From: Collinsella intestinalis DSM 13280 | Lineage (GTDB): Bacteria; Actinomycetota; Coriobacteriia; Coriobacteriales; Coriobacteriaceae | Direction: 5' to 3' | DNA length: 64,000 bases | Assembly (NCBI RefSeq): GCF_000156175.1 | Contig: NZ_GG692710.1 | Span: 856,778-920,777, forward strand | In this document: in pieces, positions 841-38,063 of the stretch | Numbering within the stretch: the first letter of the stretch is position 1 | Layout: each line of letters begins with the position of its first letter | Notes under the pieces: model-generated | What the model saw: the letters and a program-made list of their open reading frames with translations, nothing else | The model's database searches: none | What the model was told of the DNA's origin: nothing | Program-made: the position numbers and the translations under genes

Positions 841-2106
841 TCACTCGGTCGGCGCGGGCGCGTCGAGATCGCGCAGCGCGCGGGCGACGAGCGCGCACAG
901 GGTCACGGCAATCCAGACTCCCGTCATGACCAGGCAGGCCGACCCGATATCCATGAGAGAGACGAGCACGGAGCCAAAGAACGCGCCGGCAGGGGCGACG
1001 ACGAGGAACAGAGCGTTCAGAGCGCCCATTGCCGCTCCGCGGCGAGACTCAGGCACGCGATCGTAGGCAAAGAAGCCGAGGAGCGCCGAAGCCGGGCCGG
1101 CGAAGAGCCCCACGATGCCCGCCGCGAGCATGAGCACGGGAACAGAGGGCAGCGTGCCCATGACGACCATGCCGAGCGCCATGCCCGACAAAGAGATGAC
1201 GAACCACGTGCGACGAGGCATGCGCGGAGAGAATGCGGTATAGAGCAAGGAGCCGCACAGCAGGCCGGCGCCCATGGAGGACACGACGTAACCCACCAGC
1301 TCGGGCGCACCCATGGCGGTGAAGTGAGCGGGCAGCACGATGCCCTGCCAGCTTCCCATCACCATGGAGATGCCGAAGGACAGCAGCGTCGAGGCGCGCA
1401 GCAGCGAGTCGGTGCCAAACAGAGCATGCAGGCCGTCGACGAGGACCGAACGGGAGGCACGGGCCATGCGCTTGATCGCGCTCTCGTGGGGGGCGGCCAT
1501 CTCGGTGGACTCGGCAGCGGAAACGGCAATGACGCCGACCTCGCGCGGCAGGCTCGCAGTCACGAGCGCGGCGGCGCATGAGCACGCGCCGGTGACCCAG
1601 AGCGCATCGACATCGCCCATAAAGCCCATGAGCAGGGCGGCGGCGGCCGGTCCGATGATGTTCACCATAGCCTTGAGCGACTGATTGGCGCCCACGAACT
1701 GCTGGAGGTTCGCTCCGTCGCGCCCGCAGACCTCGGGCAGCAGCGCGTCTCGGGCGGTCATGCCGGGGACATCGCCCACGGCGCCGAGCAGACCGAGCAC
1801 CACGAACCAGCCAAAGCTCAGACCCCAGATCTCGTCCACGATGGGCAGCAGAGCGACGCTCAGGGCGGAGACGAGGTCCGAGACCATGCACACGCGGCGG
1901 CGGTTGAGCTTGTCGAGCGCGGCGCCACCCACAAGGCCGCAGATGAACTGCGGCACCGCGCAGATGATGGCAAGCGAACCCGCCGCAAGCGCGTCACCGG
2001 TACGCGCAAGCAACACGAGCGGCAGCACGACACCGGCGATGCTGTTGCCCAGCAATGACAGCGCGTCGCTGATCAAAAATCGAAGAACCGAACCCTTCAG
2101 CTTCAT
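841..2106 (-). CDS. MFS transporter (probable drug/metabolite exporter)
   Basis: 421-residue integral membrane protein with about 12 hydrophobic segments. It carries the MFS motif-A loop after the second helix (GGAALDKLNRRRV, about residues 59-71), typical of drug:H+ antiporter-like MFS_1/MFS_3 proteins. The ATG at 2106 has AAGGG seven bases upstream. Its promoter has an unusually long 19-bp spacer containing a dyad, and it shares a 15-base block with the promoter of the MerR regulator at 11323. That suggests MerR-type control of an efflux pump. The substrate cannot be deduced. Confidence 0.85.
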   Translation of the reverse strand: MKLKGSVLRFLISDALSLLGNSIAGVVLPLVLLARTGDALAAGSLAIICAVPQFICGLVGGAALDKLNRRRVCMVSDLVSALSVALLPIVDEIWGLSFGWFVVLGLLGAVGDVPGMTARDALLPEVCGRDGANLQQFVGANQSLKAMVNIIGPAAAALLMGFMGDVDALWVTGACSCAAALVTASLPREVGVIAVSAAESTEMAAPHESAIKRMARASRSVLVDGLHALFGTDSLLRASTLLSFGISMVMGSWQGIVLPAHFTAMGAPELVGYVVSSMGAGLLCGSLLYTAFSPRMPRRTWFVISLSGMALGMVVMGTLPSVPVLMLAAGIVGLFAGPASALLGFFAYDRVPESRRGAAMGALNALFLVVAPAGAFFGSVLVSLMDIGSACLVMTGVWIAVTLCALVARALRDLDAPAPTE

Positions 2107-2294: not shown

Positions 2295-3089
2295 CTAACT
2301 CAGCAGCATGCGGTCGTTGGCGAGCTCGCCGCCGGAAACCTCCTCGAACTTCTGCAGCAGGTCGGGCACCGTGAGCGCGCGTTTCTCCTCCCCTGCCACG
2401 TCGTAGATCACGTGGCCCTCGTGCATCATGATCAGGCGGTTGCCAAGGCGGATCGCGTCGTTCATGTTGTGGGTCACCATAAGCGTGGTGAGCTGACGCT
2501 CGGCGACGATCTGCTCCGTGAGCTCGAGGACCTTCGAGGCCGTCTTGGGGTCCAGCGCGGCGGTGTGCTCATCGAGCAGCAGCACGCGCGGGTTGGTGAG
2601 CGTTGCCATGAGCAGGGTGAGCGCCTGGCGCTGACCGCCGGACAACAGGCCGACCTTTGCCTGCATGCGCGTCTCCAGGCCAAGATCGAGGCGCTTGAGC
2701 AACTCAGCGTATTCGGCGCGCTCGTCCTTGGTGATGCCCCAGCGCAGGCCACGGCGCTGCCCGCGGCGCTTGGCAAGGGCAAGGTTCTCCTCGATCTGCA
2801 TGTCAGCGGCGGTGCCACGCATGGGATCTTGGAACACGCGGCCCAGGTACTTTGCGCGCTTGGGCTCGGACAGACGCGAGATGTCCTCGCCGTCCAACTC
2901 GATAGTGCCAGAATCGAGCGGATACACGCCCGCGATCATATTGAGCAGGGTGGACTTGCCGGCGCCGTTGCCGCCGATGACAGTCACGAAATCGCCGTCG
3001 GCCAGGGTGAGATCAACACCGGTGAGGGCGCGCTTCTCGGTGACGGTACCGCGGTTGAACGTCTTCTTCACGTGGGACAGCTTAAGCAT
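2295..3089 (-). CDS. ABC transporter ATP-binding protein (ABC_sub_bind / TrpXYZ-type system)
   Basis: 264-residue cytoplasmic ATPase that would power the permease encoded just upstream. Visible are Walker A (GGNGAGKST), the signature LSGGQRQ, Walker B (VLLLDEHTAALD) and the switch histidine in VTHNM. The ATG at 3089 overlaps the permease stop by eight bases and has GTGAGG in front, so the two are translationally coupled. Family context (PF04392 binding proteins plus a BMP/Ltp-like permease) matches the streptococcal and clostridial Trp-type importers. The ligand here is inferred at best. Confidence 0.85.
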   Translation of the reverse strand: MLKLSHVKKTFNRGTVTEKRALTGVDLTLADGDFVTVIGGNGAGKSTLLNMIAGVYPLDSGTIELDGEDISRLSEPKRAKYLGRVFQDPMRGTAADMQIEENLALAKRRGQRRGLRWGITKDERAEYAELLKRLDLGLETRMQAKVGLLSGGQRQALTLLMATLTNPRVLLLDEHTAALDPKTASKVLELTEQIVAERQLTTLMVTHNMNDAIRLGNRLIMMHEGHVIYDVAGEEKRALTVPDLLQKFEEVSGGELANDRMLLS

Positions 3090-4002
3090 CTGCCTCACCG
3101 CCCTTCGAGTAGCTCGCACGCAGCTTGAACTTCTCCCACACCACCGGCACGCACAGAGCCAGGGCCACGATGACCGCGGACAGGAGCTTCATATCGTTGG
3201 CGTCCATGCCCATCTGCAGCACGATGGCGCGGATGAGGAAGTACACCACAGAGCCGGCGACGGCGGAAACCAGGCGGCTCTTGAATCCCGTGAGCTTGCC
3301 GGGGGTGAGGCGGCCGAGCACCTCGCCGATAACGATGGCAGCCAAACCGATGACGATGGCGCCGGTGCCCATGCCGATGTCGGCGTACTTCTGGCTCTGG
3401 CAGATGAGACCACCGGAAAGACCCACGAGGGCGTTCGACAGCATGAGGGCGATCATCTTGGTCTTGGCCGTGGAGACGCCGAGGGCGCGGATCATGTGCT
3501 CGTTGTTACCGGTTGCACGCAGGGCGCTGCCGATCTCGGTGCCGAAGAACCAGTACAGCGCGGCGATAATCGCAACGGCCACGATGACTCCCACGATGAT
3601 GGAAGCGGTGGCCGAAGACAGACCCGTCAACTCGGTCATGCGAGAGAAGATCGTATCGCTTTGCAGCAGGGGCGTGTTGGACTTGCCCATGATGCGCAGG
3701 TTGACCGACCACAGGGCGATCTGGGTGAGGATGCCCGCGAGAATCGCCGGAATCTCGAACACCGTATGCAAAAAGCCCGTGACGGCGCCGGCAAGCATGC
3801 CGGCGAGCATCGCCGCCGCGACCGCGATGAGCGGGTCGACGCCGGCAACCACGAGCACGGCGCACACGCTGCCACCGAGCGCGAAGCTGCCGTCGACGGT
3901 GAGGTCGGCGATATCGAGAAGTTTGTAGGTGATGTACACACCGAGGACCATGATGCCCCACAGGATGCCCTGGGAAACGGCGCCGAGAAGCGCTCCGCTC
4001 AT
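3082..4002 (-). CDS. ABC transporter permease (TrpY-like)
   Basis: 306-residue membrane protein with about eight or nine hydrophobic segments; the permease half of the importer formed with the downstream ATPase and the two upstream lipoproteins. The segment TVDGSFALGGSVCAVLV and the following glycine-rich helices are typical of the branched-chain/ribose-like permease superfamily. The ATG at 4002 has an AAAGGAGGG ribosome site; longer in-frame starts would run through the 13-bp hairpin at 4028-4061 and are rejected. Confidence 0.85.
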   Translation of the reverse strand: MSGALLGAVSQGILWGIMVLGVYITYKLLDIADLTVDGSFALGGSVCAVLVVAGVDPLIAVAAAMLAGMLAGAVTGFLHTVFEIPAILAGILTQIALWSVNLRIMGKSNTPLLQSDTIFSRMTELTGLSSATASIIVGVIVAVAIIAALYWFFGTEIGSALRATGNNEHMIRALGVSTAKTKMIALMLSNALVGLSGGLICQSQKYADIGMGTGAIVIGLAAIVIGEVLGRLTPGKLTGFKSRLVSAVAGSVVYFLIRAIVLQMGMDANDMKLLSAVIVALALCVPVVWEKFKLRASYSKGGEADA

Positions 4003-4162: not shown

Positions 4163-5197
4163 CTACTCGGCGGCACTCACGTCCGTGGCGCCATCCTCGA
4201 CCAGCGAGGTGACGTCAATGCCGAGCGCCTCGGCGGTCCGCCCGTTGTAGACCAGGTCGCACTCGGCGGCTCCCATGGACTCGATCGGCATTGCGGCGGG
4301 CTCGGCACCCTCGGTGAGGATGCGCACAGCCATCTCGCCCGCGCGGCGGCCGAGCTCCTCGTAATTGATGGACAGGCTCGCCAGGCCGCCGGCCTCGACG
4401 TGTGCGACCTCGCCGCACACCGTGGGCACCTTGTGCTCGTTGGCGATCGAGGCGATCACCGTCATAGCGGAGGCGATGGTGTTGTCCGTGGGAGTGTAGA
4501 TGGCGTCGACCTTGCCCATCATGGACTCGACCACCTGCTGGACCTCGTTGGAGCTGGAGGCGGTGTACTCGACGCCCTCTATACCGAGCTTTTTGAGCTC
4601 GGCGGCGGCCAGCTCAATCTGGATCTTTGAGTTGGACTCGGCGGTGCAGTAGAGCAGGCCGACCTTCTTGGCCTCGGGCGCGAGCTGGTGGAGCAGGTCG
4701 ATCTGATCGACGACGGGGTTCATGTCGGAGGTGCCGGTGACGTTGCCGCCGGGGGCGTCATTGTCCTTGACCAGGCCGGAGGCGGCGAAGTCGGTGATGG
4801 CGGTGCAGACGATGGGGATGTCGGAGGTGGCACCCGCCACGGCCTGGGCGGCGGGGGTGGCGATCGCGAGGATCAGGTCGCAGCCCTCGTTCACGAGCGT
4901 GCTCGCGATGGTCTGGCAGGCGGACTGGTCGTTCTGGGCGTTTTGCTGATTGATCTTCGCGCCGATACCGGCCTCTTCCACCGCGGCGACGAAGCCCTTG
5001 TTGGCGGCGTCGAGTGCGGGGTGCTCGGTGAGCTGCAGGACGCCGATCTTGAAGGCGGCGTCAGACGGGGCGGAACCATCGGCCTTGGCGGCGGGGTCGC
5101 CGCATCCGGCGAGGCCGAGACCGCCGACGATCGCGAATGCGGCGGCGCCGGCCATGCCCTTGACAAGAGAGCGACGAGAGCAGGTGGAGTTGTTCAT
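4163..5197 (-). CDS. ABC transporter substrate-binding lipoprotein (copy 2)
   Basis: 344-residue secreted binding protein of the PF04392 (ABC_sub_bind, TrpX-like) family. The N-terminus has twin arginines (CSRRSLVKG) followed by a hydrophobic stretch and lipobox LAGC with cysteine 32, so it is probably Tat-exported and lipid-anchored. It closely parallels the protein encoded at 5298-6302 (shared NQQNAQNDQSACQTIAS and TDNTIA blocks), so the pair is a tandem duplication sharing one permease and ATPase. The ATG at 5197 follows GGAGAATCTCC. Amino-acid-type ligands are known for some family members; the ligand here is unknown. Confidence 0.85.
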   Translation of the reverse strand: MNNSTCSRRSLVKGMAGAAAFAIVGGLGLAGCGDPAAKADGSAPSDAAFKIGVLQLTEHPALDAANKGFVAAVEEAGIGAKINQQNAQNDQSACQTIASTLVNEGCDLILAIATPAAQAVAGATSDIPIVCTAITDFAASGLVKDNDAPGGNVTGTSDMNPVVDQIDLLHQLAPEAKKVGLLYCTAESNSKIQIELAAAELKKLGIEGVEYTASSSNEVQQVVESMMGKVDAIYTPTDNTIASAMTVIASIANEHKVPTVCGEVAHVEAGGLASLSINYEELGRRAGEMAVRILTEGAEPAAMPIESMGAAECDLVYNGRTAEALGIDVTSLVEDGATDVSAAE

Positions 5198-5297
5198 GGA
5201 GATTCTCCTAACGTGCGCACAGGGCGCATGGGTGGCATATGGGACTGAGGGAGGTCGAATCGCGCATCGCGCGCGGCCTCACGCCCGACCGACCGCG

Positions 5298-6302
5298 TTA
5301 GACGATCTGGGCATCCTCGAGCATCGAGATGTCGACGCCGAGTGCATCGGCGGTCGCCTGGTTGACGATGAGCTGGCACTCATCGCTCGACAGGTACTCG
5401 ATGGGCATATCGGCGGGATTGGCGTCCTCGGTGAGGATCTTCACGGCCATCTCGCCTGCCTTATAACCCAAGTCGTAATAGCTGATGCTATACGACGCCA
5501 GCCCTCCATCCTCGACCATGGTGTCGCATCCTACGATGACGGGGAGTTTATTCTCATTGGCGACCATGGAGACGGTCGCCATACCCGCGGCGATGGTGTT
5601 GTCGGTGGGAGCGTAAATCGCGTCGACCTTGCCGACCATGGATTCGACCATCTGCTGGATCTCATTGGAAGAGGAGACCGCGTAGCGCTCGTGCGCGATG
5701 CCGGCGTCCTCGAGGACCTCCTCGGCGAGCTCGACCTGCACCGTCGAATTGGACTCGGCGGAGCAGTACAGGATGCCCACGCTCTTGGCCTCGGGCAGCA
5801 GCTGGCGAAGCAGCTCGATCTGATCCGCGACGGGCGTGAGGTCCGAGCTTCCGGTGACGTTGCCGCCGGGCTCCTCATTGGAGTCCACGAGCCCGCTCTC
5901 GGCGTAATCGGTGATGGCGGAGCCGACGACCGGGATGTCGGACGTGGCGCCCGCGACCGCCTGGGCAGCGGGAGTGGCAATGGCGAAGATCAGGTCGTCA
6001 CCGTCGTTCACGAGCTTGCTCGCGATGGTCTGGCAGGCCGACTGATCGTTCTGTGCGTTTTGCTGATCGATCGTGTAGGCGATACCCGACTCGTCGAGCG
6101 CGGCGACGAAGCCCTTGTTCGTTTGGTCGAGCGCACCGTGCTCGACCAGCTGCAGGACGCCGACCTTGTAGCCGGAACCCGTCTTCCCAGAAGCACCGGT
6201 GCTGCCGGGGGCAGCCTTGCCGTCGCCACAGCCGGCCAGCGCTCCGGCGGCAAAAAAGCTCGCTCCGAGGGCGATAAGGTTCCTGCGCGAAATGCTCAGC
6301 AT
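5298..6302 (-). CDS. ABC transporter substrate-binding lipoprotein (copy 1)
   Basis: 334-residue PF04392-type binding protein and probable first gene of the importer operon. Residues 5-10 contain SRRNLI and the lipobox LAGC ends at cysteine 25, giving a Tat-type lipoprotein signal. Like copy 2 it has the VGVLQL.EH opening strand, the NQQNAQNDQSACQTIAS segment and the VDAIYAPTDNTIA strand. The ATG at 6302 is chosen because GGAG lies nine bases upstream and an earlier start would add a non-signal leader. Divergence of the last third from copy 2 could mean different ligands. Confidence 0.85.
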   Translation of the reverse strand: MLSISRRNLIALGASFFAAGALAGCGDGKAAPGSTGASGKTGSGYKVGVLQLVEHGALDQTNKGFVAALDESGIAYTIDQQNAQNDQSACQTIASKLVNDGDDLIFAIATPAAQAVAGATSDIPVVGSAITDYAESGLVDSNEEPGGNVTGSSDLTPVADQIELLRQLLPEAKSVGILYCSAESNSTVQVELAEEVLEDAGIAHERYAVSSSNEIQQMVESMVGKVDAIYAPTDNTIAAGMATVSMVANENKLPVIVGCDTMVEDGGLASYSISYYDLGYKAGEMAVKILTEDANPADMPIEYLSSDECQLIVNQATADALGVDISMLEDAQIV

Positions 6303-6581
6303 GGCGATCAACTCCGTTTCCTCTGTACGGGTCCCGCCATCCATCAGCGGGACGCTTTATCGCGTGAAAGCAATGCAAGGGATATACTAGCCCGCCCGGA
6401 TCATGGGGGCCAGAGCGTTAATGCCGTGTTAACAAGCGGGCAATATAGCAGCCCAATAGAAACGTCGCAGACATCTCGATATCCCGCAACTTGACTCCCC
6501 CACCAACTCAAAACCTCGGAGAATCCAGCTCCAAGGCCTCGAAACAGCCGACTCAAAGGCTCAAAAGACCCGTGCGCAGCG

Positions 6582-9001: not shown

Positions 9002-9229
9002 ATCGAGTGACCCATGCGGAGACGGGCGTTTTTCGTCCTTCCCCGCTCGTCGCCGCCTCGCATTTCACTGAAACATATCCAAAGTCACGAGCTTCGGGTC
9101 TTATTCGTGTCTTTCATGCCATCTCGATGCGATGCCCGCTCGGCGGGGTAGCGCGAAAACCCGCGGCGCCCCGCCTTCCCCGTATCCGCATCCCTGGGCC
9201 TTTCCAATACTCAGCCCATCGCATGCTCA

Positions 9230-10315
9230 TCACGCCTTTGAATCTCCGCGTTCGGGGTCGGCCACCAAATCGAGCAGCCTGCACGTGCGGTCGGCGAGCT
9301 CGTCGATATCTTCGCGCATGTTCTTCGTCCAGCGCTCCTGGCTCGCGACCGTCTCTGCACTATTCGCCACCAGGGCGTCAAGATTTGACGAGAGGGAAGC
9401 CATGGGCGTCTTGAGCTCATGAGATGCCTTGATGAGAAACTCTCGCTGGCGCGCCTGGGACTCTGCCACCGGAACGAGCGCGCGATCGATGATCCTACGG
9501 CACACCAAGACGAGCACGACGCAGCCAGCCACGCCGACCGCCGCGAGAAACATAGCCATCCGCCTCAGGTATATGACTGACGAGGTGATATCGACGAACG
9601 CATACACGCGAGCGGCCAAATACCCATCCTTTTCGTACCCCTCGAGGCGCCCGTCGCTGTACAGGGAAACCCCGCTGTCGCCCGTCGCGTCTTTCGAATA
9701 ACGCGGACTCGTCACTGCGATCTCCGTCGCGCACTTCCACGTCATCCCATGAACCTTAATGTACTGCGGCTTCGGGCGCTTGCCGGCATCCGCCCGATTG
9801 GACAGAGCAATGTTCGTCAATTCTTCGAGTGCGGATTCACACCAATTGAACGCCCCATACAAAGGATCGCCATCGCCACTTATCACATTATGAGGGGGCA
9901 CCAGGAACGCCATGGAGCCTCCTTCGAACACTGCGAGGGAGAACGGACTCTGCACGGGCCCAGAGAGCGAGTAGTAGGTGTCCGGCGCCGTTGCCGTCGG
10001 CTTCCAATCGCCCGCCTCCTCTTTCGATGATTCGATTAGGCCAGCGAACGCTTGAGGGACGTCGGGCTTCGCGCCCTCGTAGGCCTCCATCAGACTGCCC
10101 CGATTCAATGAGTCGGTCATCACGTTTTGCAGCGCCACGTTGTTGGCGTCTCGCGCCGAAAATGCACTGGCAACCCAAGCAGCCGCCAAAGCGAATACGA
10201 GGATGCTGCAAACAAGCATCGACGAGCGCAGCCACAGGCGCTTGCGCAGGGCCCTGAGATCACCGCCCCCCGCAGTCAAACCGTCTTTCTGCCCATTATT
10301 GAACACGGCGCTCAT
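9230..10315 (-). CDS. Sensor histidine kinase lacking the HATPase domain
   Basis: 361-residue membrane protein with a first membrane helix (about 31-52), a large extracytoplasmic region (53-250), a second helix (252-272) and a HisKA dimerisation/phosphoacceptor helix containing His299 (KASHELKTPMASLSS). The frame stops 62 residues after His299, at 9230. Only 228 bases separate it from the next gene, too few for the roughly 110-residue catalytic ATP-binding domain, and no N-, G- or F-box is visible there in any frame. It lies 23 bases downstream of an intact response regulator gene. It is either a decayed kinase or a partner-dependent phosphoacceptor/phosphatase protein. Confidence 0.8.
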   Translation of the reverse strand: MSAVFNNGQKDGLTAGGGDLRALRKRLWLRSSMLVCSILVFALAAAWVASAFSARDANNVALQNVMTDSLNRGSLMEAYEGAKPDVPQAFAGLIESSKEEAGDWKPTATAPDTYYSLSGPVQSPFSLAVFEGGSMAFLVPPHNVISGDGDPLYGAFNWCESALEELTNIALSNRADAGKRPKPQYIKVHGMTWKCATEIAVTSPRYSKDATGDSGVSLYSDGRLEGYEKDGYLAARVYAFVDITSSVIYLRRMAMFLAAVGVAGCVVLVLVCRRIIDRALVPVAESQARQREFLIKASHELKTPMASLSSNLDALVANSAETVASQERWTKNMREDIDELADRTCRLLDLVADPERGDSKA

Positions 10316-10338
10316 GAATCTTCTCCCCTCGTCGCATC

Positions 10339-11031
10339 TCAGCCTGCAAGCTGTCCGTTCATCAGGCGATATCCCACACCGCGCACGGTCTCGATCCGCG
10401 CCGGTGACTCCAGTTTTTCAAGCTTGCCACGCAGCGCGTGAACCAATACCTCGATACGATTGTCGACCAACGACACATGAGGTCCCCAAAGCCGAACGGC
10501 CAAATCGCTCTTGGAGACAGGGCTTCCCGAGCGCCCCATGAACGCCTCAAGGAGCAACGCTTCCTTCGGCGTCAGCTCAACGGCAACTGCGCCCCCACGG
10601 GCCTGCACAGACAACTTTTCCACATCAAGCACAAGTCCGCACGCCTCGATCGCATTGTTCGGCCGGTAGGTTGCCGGGCGGCGCGTGACCGCGCGAATGC
10701 GGGCGAGCAGTTCGCTTGCATGAAACGGCTTGGGAAGATAATCATCCGCACCGGCGTCGAGCCCCGCCACGCGGTCGCCAACGCCCTGTCGGGCGGTGAG
10801 CAGGATAACGGGAACCACGCTGCCCGCCTCGCGCAGCTTGCGCAGAACATCCATACCGCTCATGTCGGGCAGCATGATGTCGAGAAGAAGCACATCGTAT
10901 GCGCCCGTAAGCGCCATGGCGAGACCATCGGCGCCAATGTGCGCGACATCGGCACCGTAACCGCTTTTGCGCAATATCTCGGCCACCGCCTCTGCCAGAC
11001 GCGGTGTATCTTCAATCAGCAGCACGCGCAT
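10339..11031 (-). CDS. OmpR/PhoB-family response regulator
   Basis: 230-residue DNA-binding response regulator. The receiver domain (1-115) has the acidic pocket (IEDT), the phosphoacceptor Asp51 (LLLDIMLPD), the conserved threonine in LLTA and Lys101 (PKPF). A winged-helix output domain (about 130-225) ends in the typical ETVRGVGYRL. The ATG at 11031 has a GGGAGG ribosome site. It is the first gene of a two-gene unit with the truncated kinase, so it may now depend on another phosphodonor. Confidence 0.92.
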   Translation of the reverse strand: MRVLLIEDTPRLAEAVAEILRKSGYGADVAHIGADGLAMALTGAYDVLLLDIMLPDMSGMDVLRKLREAGSVVPVILLTARQGVGDRVAGLDAGADDYLPKPFHASELLARIRAVTRRPATYRPNNAIEACGLVLDVEKLSVQARGGAVAVELTPKEALLLEAFMGRSGSPVSKSDLAVRLWGPHVSLVDNRIEVLVHALRGKLEKLESPARIETVRGVGYRLMNGQLAG

Positions 11032-11141: not shown

Positions 11142-11204
11142 GTCTCAATTCGTACCTGTCCCCAATCGAGACGGTCTCACATGGGGACAGGCACAAATTG
11201 AGAC
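11142..11204. repeat. Dispersed palindromic element, long form
   Basis: Two 22-base arms (about 11142-11163 and 11183-11204) pair with two mismatches and contain the family blocks GTCTCAATT and CCTGTCCCC. The loop holds a second dyad, GAGACGGTCTC. It lies between the response regulator gene and the MerR gene. It is the only copy here placed upstream of genes rather than beside a stop codon. Confidence 0.7.
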
Positions 11205-11322: not shown

Positions 11323-12174
11323 ATGAAAAGCAGCGAGCTTGCACGCATGGCAGGCGTGAGCGTCCGCACCCTGAGGCACTATCACGCCATTGGCCTGCTG
11401 CCAGAACCACCGCGCGGCGATAACGGCTATCGTGACTACGAGCCCACGCACCTCTTGCGCCTCCTTCGCATCCGTCAGCTGGCCTCACTCGGTTTCTCCC
11501 TCGAGCAAATCGGTCCTATGCTTCAGGACCTCGATGCCGAGCGCGCTGAGGGCGACGAGTGCCGCGGCGAGTCCGATCGACTGCTCGACGACCTCGACAG
11601 ACAGCTTCAAGAGCAGATCACCCAGCTCGAGCAACAGCGCGAGCTCATCGTGCGCATCCGCTCCGGCCAGGGCGAGCCCGACTATCCCGCCCGTGCCGCC
11701 CGCGCACTCGAAGCGATCGAGGACTTCGAACGCACGAGCCATGGACAGGGCTTTTTGCTCTGCGCGCTCACGGGCAACGACAAGACCGCGATGGGCGTGG
11801 CGGCGCACCTGTACTCCGACGACGAACTCGCCGAAATCGAACGCATCTTCCACGCCATCCCCGAGCGCGGCCTCACGCAGGAGTACCTCCATGTGAGCCG
11901 GCTCATGGACACGCTGCCGGCTCACGCGAGCACCGAGCGCCGTGAGGCCGCCATCGAAGCCGGCCTGGCTTTCCTCGAAAAGATTGACGATTGCTTCGAC
12001 GTCCGCAACTGGCTCCGGCCCGACAAGGATTACGAGCTCGTACTCGAGAACATGGCCTCGGAACACTACAACGATGCGCAGATTGCCGCGTCCGACGAGC
12101 TGTTCACGCGGTTCACGCGACGCATGGCCGAGCGCGCGGAACACGGTGGGTGCATATCGTCGACCGAGGCCTGA
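11323..12174 (+). CDS. MerR-family transcriptional regulator
   Basis: 283-residue regulator. The N-terminal winged helix (1-70) has the family pattern SELARMAGVSVRTLRHYHAIGL and NGYRDY. A dimerising helix follows (about 85-115, a run rich in Gln and Leu), and then a roughly 165-residue helical C-terminal domain of unknown ligand. That length is like drug-sensing members (TipA/BmrR class), but no TipAS signature is clear. The ATG at 11323 has GGAGGAG upstream. The promoter shares a 15-base element with the MFS exporter promoter 9 kb away, so the exporter is a candidate target. Confidence 0.88.
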   Translation: MKSSELARMAGVSVRTLRHYHAIGLLPEPPRGDNGYRDYEPTHLLRLLRIRQLASLGFSLEQIGPMLQDLDAERAEGDECRGESDRLLDDLDRQLQEQITQLEQQRELIVRIRSGQGEPDYPARAARALEAIEDFERTSHGQGFLLCALTGNDKTAMGVAAHLYSDDELAEIERIFHAIPERGLTQEYLHVSRLMDTLPAHASTERREAAIEAGLAFLEKIDDCFDVRNWLRPDKDYELVLENMASEHYNDAQIAASDELFTRFTRRMAERAEHGGCISSTEA

Positions 12175-29053: not shown

Positions 29054-29241
29054 GCGTCTACCTCGTTTATGCTCGTGGCGTGTTATCGAAAAACGTGTAC
29101 CCAATGGCGCACCATGATAACCGATTGAGGTCAAAACGCGACAGCTGACGCAAGGGACAGCACCGCTGCTCGTGCCCATATCCAATAAGGCCCGCAGCGA
29201 ACTTCATCGCTACGGGCCTTTCGCATCCCTAGGGAAGACGG

Positions 29242-29270
29242 CTCAATTTGTACCTGTCCCCAATTGAGAC
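29242..29270. repeat. Dispersed palindromic element after pepD
   Basis: CTCAATT and AATTGAG flank a core with TACCTGTCCCC; the element ends one base from the pepD stop codon. It belongs to the family at 11142, 21588, 31025 and 38035. Confidence 0.7.
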
Positions 29271-38034: not shown

Positions 38035-38063
38035 CAATTGGGGGACAGGCACCAATTGAGACG
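38035..38063. repeat. Dispersed palindromic element after murI
   Basis: CAATTGG (38035-38041) and CCAATTG (38052-38058) flank GGGACAGGCA, with GAGACG at the end. It touches the murI stop codon. Compared with the copy after pepD the inner block is inverted. Confidence 0.7.

Follow-up and report, generated by a model that had tools for sequence, protein, structure and literature searches.

The sensor gene of a two-component pair at positions 9230-11031 of the window (the whole stretch of DNA that was analyzed, 64,000 nucleotides) ends directly after its HisKA/DHp domain, and selection maintains this shortened sensor across several related species. The explanation that we rate highest, at roughly an even chance, is that the protein acts as a signal-gated phosphatase, or as a docking partner, of its own response regulator. 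The initial annotation had offered a kinase that is either decaying or working with a separate catalytic protein; phosphatase or docking function without any catalytic domain, an option absent from it, suits our data better.

Architecture of the sensor and its surroundings

The features of the locus, with the evidence for each, are as follows.

9230..10315, minus strand: sensor "kinase" of family F1, 361 aa, without a catalytic domain (open reading frame; Pfam HisKA only; truncated orthologues in G037, G015, and G038)
9266..9448, minus strand: HisKA/DHp domain, residues 290-350 (Pfam HisKA, 2.5e-6; predicted hairpin; superposition on 7ltq)
9407..9421, minus strand: H299-E300-L301-K302-T303, with the phosphoacceptor His, Glu at H+1 (kinase), and Thr at H+4 (phosphatase) (sequence; invariance in 7/7; PMC3510030)
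9500..10219, minus strand: both membrane helices and the extracytoplasmic alpha/beta sensor domain between them, which has no family assignment; approximate limits (sequence, AF2 model)
9002..9229, no strand: gap of 228 bases before the convergent next gene, without a HATPase_c remnant
10339..11031, minus strand: OmpR-type response regulator with acceptor Asp51 (10879-10881), Thr79, and Lys101 (Pfam Response_reg, 1e-27; Trans_reg_C, 1e-18)
11323..12174, plus strand: MerR-family regulator, a divergent neighbor that lies near the pair in G037 and G038 too (Pfam; gene calls)
841..2106, minus strand: MFS transporter (Pfam MFS_1; gene calls)

In the sensor, two membrane helices, the first of them N-terminal, flank an extracytoplasmic region and are followed by the HisKA/DHp domain. 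His299 of this domain sits in the motif ASHELKTP, and the open reading frame ends 62 residues past this histidine. HisKA is the only Pfam domain in the protein (over the cut-off), HATPase_c is absent from it, and a six-frame search of the whole genome placed no HATPase_c near the gene, either at E<=1e-3 or at E<=1. This organization had been read from the sequence alone in the initial annotation, together with the claim that the 228-base gap cannot hold a HATPase_c domain, and the reading frame, Pfam, the structural model, and the six-frame search bear out both points. The protein thus has the phosphoacceptor His and the HisKA/DHp domain of a HisKA-type histidine kinase but not the HATPase_c that should follow in the same polypeptide, and it shares the sensor, the HisKA domain with conserved His, and the missing HATPase of the histidine kinase-like proteins described as "HisKA, no HATPase."

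An AF2 model built from 13 aligned sequences (mean pLDDT, 77) contains a complete DHp hairpin with helices at 244-317 and 324-352, and residues 281-352 superpose on the histidine kinase DHp 7ltq (Z 8.4, 1.9 A over 72 residues). Since the modeled hairpin is complete and matches a solved DHp, the gene stops at a domain boundary, right behind DHp helix 2, rather than partway through a domain. A search of PDB sequences with the sensor as query gave no match, and the fold of the sensor domain found no reliable counterpart (Foldseek, E>=0.038; Z below 8.5 with no clear leader), the similarity to LuxQ/CzcS-type periplasmic sensor folds being weak and untrusted at Z 5-6; we therefore propose no ligand.

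The regulator gene lies upstream of the sensor, and its Response_reg and Trans_reg_C domains are both full-length, while the acceptor Asp and the Thr and Lys are invariant across nine related regulators, so that the earlier description of an intact adjacent regulator holds and the sensor has a partner with both a receiver Asp and a DNA-binding domain. The MerR gene adjoins the pair in the window, and the MFS transporter gene is about 7 kb off; in G037 a homologue of the latter is oriented divergently from the regulator, and in G038 it follows the sensor directly on the downstream side. Because of this adjacency in the two other genomes, the transporter is a candidate target of the system, as a guess from gene neighborhood.

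Several further observations concern the surrounding DNA. A codon-usage gene caller scored the sensor at 29 and the regulator at 36, well below most similar-sized neighbors, which may point to unusual codon usage or to a foreign source of positions 9230-11031. A REP-like intergenic repeat, TGGGGACAGGCACAAATTGAGAC, occurs with up to 2 mismatches at window positions 11142-11204, 29240-29262, and 38040-38062 (4 copies, against 0 expected by chance); immediately ahead of the response regulator gene it stands as an inverted pair. Positions 4163-6344 hold two similar tandem substrate-binding lipoprotein genes, followed by ABC permease and ATPase genes (2295-4002), probably a duplication within a transport operon.

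Conservation and origin of the shortened form

Orthologues of the F1 sensor were found in three other species among 43 genomes of the genus (G037, 387 aa, 51% identity; G015, 337 aa; G038, 388 aa), at 34-51% identity. All of them adjoin an orthologous OmpR-type regulator and stop at the same DHp boundary, HATPase_c being absent behind it. The comparison with orthologues that the initial annotation had called for thus shows a truncation common to these genomes, not the full-length orthologues and local deletion junction that it named as the opposing outcome. A second pair of the same architecture, family F2, is present in the same genome (G000 C3:150679-151581, also given as C3:151342), with intact relatives in two further species (G014 and G036), so that the conserved form comprises four F1 and three F2 intact genes. 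When HisKA and HATPase_c coordinates were compared in six genomes, 58/66 HisKA matches were followed by HATPase_c, and the remaining 8 were exactly the F1 and F2 proteins, including an F2 remnant in G037. The searches across the class drew on 396 genomes, a sample of a larger group, and the search for related loci among the named genomes gave a single distant match in Streptomyces.

The DHp is the best-kept part of the protein. Between G000 and G037 its identity is 88%, whereas the N-terminal and sensor portion reaches 42%, and with a pN of 0.089, far below its pS of 0.487, the domain is under purifying selection; F2 shows the same bias towards DHp conservation. It is accordingly highly improbable that the kinase gene is in decay, or that a frameshift or misassembly shortened it. 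Four species share the end point at 34-51% identity and without internal stops, for which reason sequencing or assembly error, ruled out by this recurrence in four genomes, and decay are both rejected; the selection on the DHp and the intact regulators likewise speak against decay. That such genes can decay is nevertheless seen in the F2 remnants of G037, G028, G239, and G062. Thus, of the two proposals in the initial annotation, decay gives way to the conserved truncation and DHp selection, while a separate catalytic partner is kept as a less likely alternative.

The F2 remnants themselves, which stop directly behind the DHp, are L027 (G037 C1:1407931), L090 (G028 C22), L088 (G239 C1:1502694), and L095 (G062 C2). 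Those in G037, G028, and G239 have no regulator and end in the same way, at MLMHMGGD or near it, and the remnant in G062 is headless. G239 belongs to another family, and the upstream neighbor of its remnant is the same as in G037; near-identical tails in two bacterial families, together with a common neighbor, suggest transfer on a mobile segment. The decay of F2 in four genomes shows that the system is dispensable in places.

An alignment of the DHp from the 7 proteins of truncated architecture and 26 full-length relatives (73 columns) separates what has been kept from what has been lost. HELKTP is invariant in all seven truncated proteins, and with it the Thr at H+4 (T303 in the sensor of the window), a position where a phosphatase of this kind is expected to have Thr or Asn. 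Two of the 73 columns are wholly changed: at H-3, 25/26 full-length proteins have Asp, for which the truncated ones have K, K, R, R, S, S, and A, and at H+44, 25/26 have Leu, replaced in the truncated ones by R, R, R, M, S, C, and K (Fisher, 1.9e-6 for each, values that ignore kinship and stand for at most two independent events). In alignments to solved kinases, H-3 corresponds to VicK Asn214, a residue in contact with the catalytic (CA) domain (PMC3582566), and H+44 to CpxA Met287, which belongs to the pocket where the CA domain is anchored (PMC3904827). CrdS has Arg at H-3 and is yet an active kinase. As a class, CA-contact columns were lost no more than other conserved columns (p 0.51), and we therefore cite only the two fully lost positions.

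In regulator trees and in a tree of regulator plus DHp, F2 forms one strongly supported group (100/99 to 100/100), whereas F1 clusters with two full-length kinases, those of G028 and G022 (97/93 to 98/97). These nearest full-length relatives (G028 C20 and G022 C2) likewise place a related sensor kinase beside an orthologous regulator but keep HATPase_c (8.7e-27 and 1.3e-26) as well as both Asp H-3 and Leu H+44. Because F1 joins these kinases while F2 stands as its own group, we favor two separate losses of the catalytic domain within the genus as the probable history. A single origin of F1 and F2, with one loss and later regain or replacement, is less likely: constraining the two to one group lowers the log-likelihood by about 15 units, and the p-AU values are 0.025 for the concatenated data, 0.063 without the H-3 and H+44 columns, and 0.070 for the regulator alone.

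Proposed phosphate chemistry at the shortened sensor

As the catalytic domain is absent, autophosphorylation of the sensor is most likely impossible. We propose that the membrane sensor would perceive an external signal and that the DHp helices would control removal of phosphate from the regulator, or its docking, with acetyl phosphate or a different kinase as the presumed phosphate donor. Acetate kinase was found in 6/6 genomes examined, and acetyl phosphate should therefore be available in principle. In this proposal, phosphatase activity, phosphate source, signal, and target genes are all inferred.

What counts in favor of a phosphatase or docking function is the conserved architecture, the selection on the DHp, the retention of HExxT, and the loss of two CA-contact positions, in seven proteins that represent at most two independent events. 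In CrdS, Thr or Asn at H+4 is essential for phosphatase activity, Glu at H+1 is needed for kinase activity only, and His merely enhances phosphatase activity (PMC3510030). The DHp of HK853 is active as a phosphatase on its own, and there the His matters (PMC5727384); the isolated DHp of EnvZ, contrary to the original report, had no phosphatase activity in mammalian cells (PMC8971529). Against a pure phosphatase stands the kinase-specific Glu300 (H+1), invariant in 7/7, which fits with a His that still receives phosphate.

Invariance of both His299 and Glu300 would also be expected of a split or hetero-oligomeric kinase, in which His299 receives its phosphate in trans, from a stand-alone ATPase or from the CA domain of a second kinase, and the DHp then hands it to the regulator. 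Such kinases exist, e.g., Hik36-Hik43 (PMC7656254), and G000 has full kinases that could act as donors as well as stand-alone HATPase proteins. Nevertheless, we consider this arrangement rather unlikely: no HATPase gene adjoins the sensor, Asp H-3 and Leu H+44, at positions that make CA contacts in solved kinases, are missing from 7/7 proteins, and the HisKA-less HATPases of G000 are gyrB/htpG-like, LytS-like, or broadly conserved, so that the co-occurring stand-alone HATPase suggested by the initial annotation was sought and none was found to track the F1/F2 genes.

Three loci of G000 were read and scanned as candidates for a dedicated ATPase, and none is specific to F1/F2 genomes. L076 is a STAS-HATPase. 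L080:602-2008, near gyrB, encodes a stand-alone HATPase_c protein of 468 aa, whose C terminus is winged-helix-like and whose linker is rich in Pro and Gln, and has likely counterparts in all six genomes examined. L077:1177-2265 (C3, beside an RNase Y-like gene) encodes a 362-aa stand-alone HATPase_c_3/HATPase_c protein with similar-sized matches in several of the other genomes examined.

A non-catalytic anchor, whose DHp would bind or release the regulator as the signal dictates but perform no phosphate chemistry, seems less probable still. A conserved and complete DHp hairpin would continue to offer a regulator-binding surface, but strict retention of the His, Glu, and Thr of HExxT in 7/7 is unexpected for pure binding. 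Returning to the preferred phosphatase or docking function, we speculate, tentatively and at somewhat less than even chance, that the kinase half was lost twice within the genus to leave a dedicated one-way sensory phosphatase, with the regulator charged metabolically or by other kinases.

Relation to known systems

Bifunctional HisKA kinases such as EnvZ, HK853, CrdS, and VicK have the same DHp with HExxT, but they carry their own CA domain and phosphorylate their regulators themselves. Division of a histidine kinase between proteins occurs in mycobacteria, where Rv0600c/Rv0601c with TcrA form a system of split domains. In the split kinase Hik36-Hik43, the phosphoacceptor domain likewise resides on an ATPase-less protein (PMC7656254), whose partner kinase is identified, whereas here none is adjacent and none co-occurs specifically.

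The closest parallel is found in archaea, where "HisKA, no HATPase" proteins have been listed and proposed, untested, as phosphatases (PMC5847659; PMC1183210), and where the P2CS label for such nonenzymatic histidine kinase-like proteins is "possible incomplete histidine kinase" (PMC5847659). Our literature search, most subscription papers lying outside it, found no bacterial case of this architecture with a paired regulator. Proteins with HisKA but no CA domain are usually dismissed as truncated or misannotated, and yet the truncated form described here is conserved, probably arose twice, adjoins its own regulator, and is altered at residues of the DHp that contact the CA domain. If our preferred explanation is true, removal of phosphate is by itself enough to drive a two-component system.

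The archaeal proteins share with ours a sensor and a HisKA domain with conserved His in the absence of HATPase, but they carry PAS/GAF sensors, while in this case bacterial membrane sensors are paired with an OmpR-type regulator. Unlike in the archaeal proteins, the loss of the catalytic domain is traceable here and is accompanied by loss of CA-contact residues, and the phosphatase role proposed for such proteins can be tested directly in a bacterium, against a defined partner.
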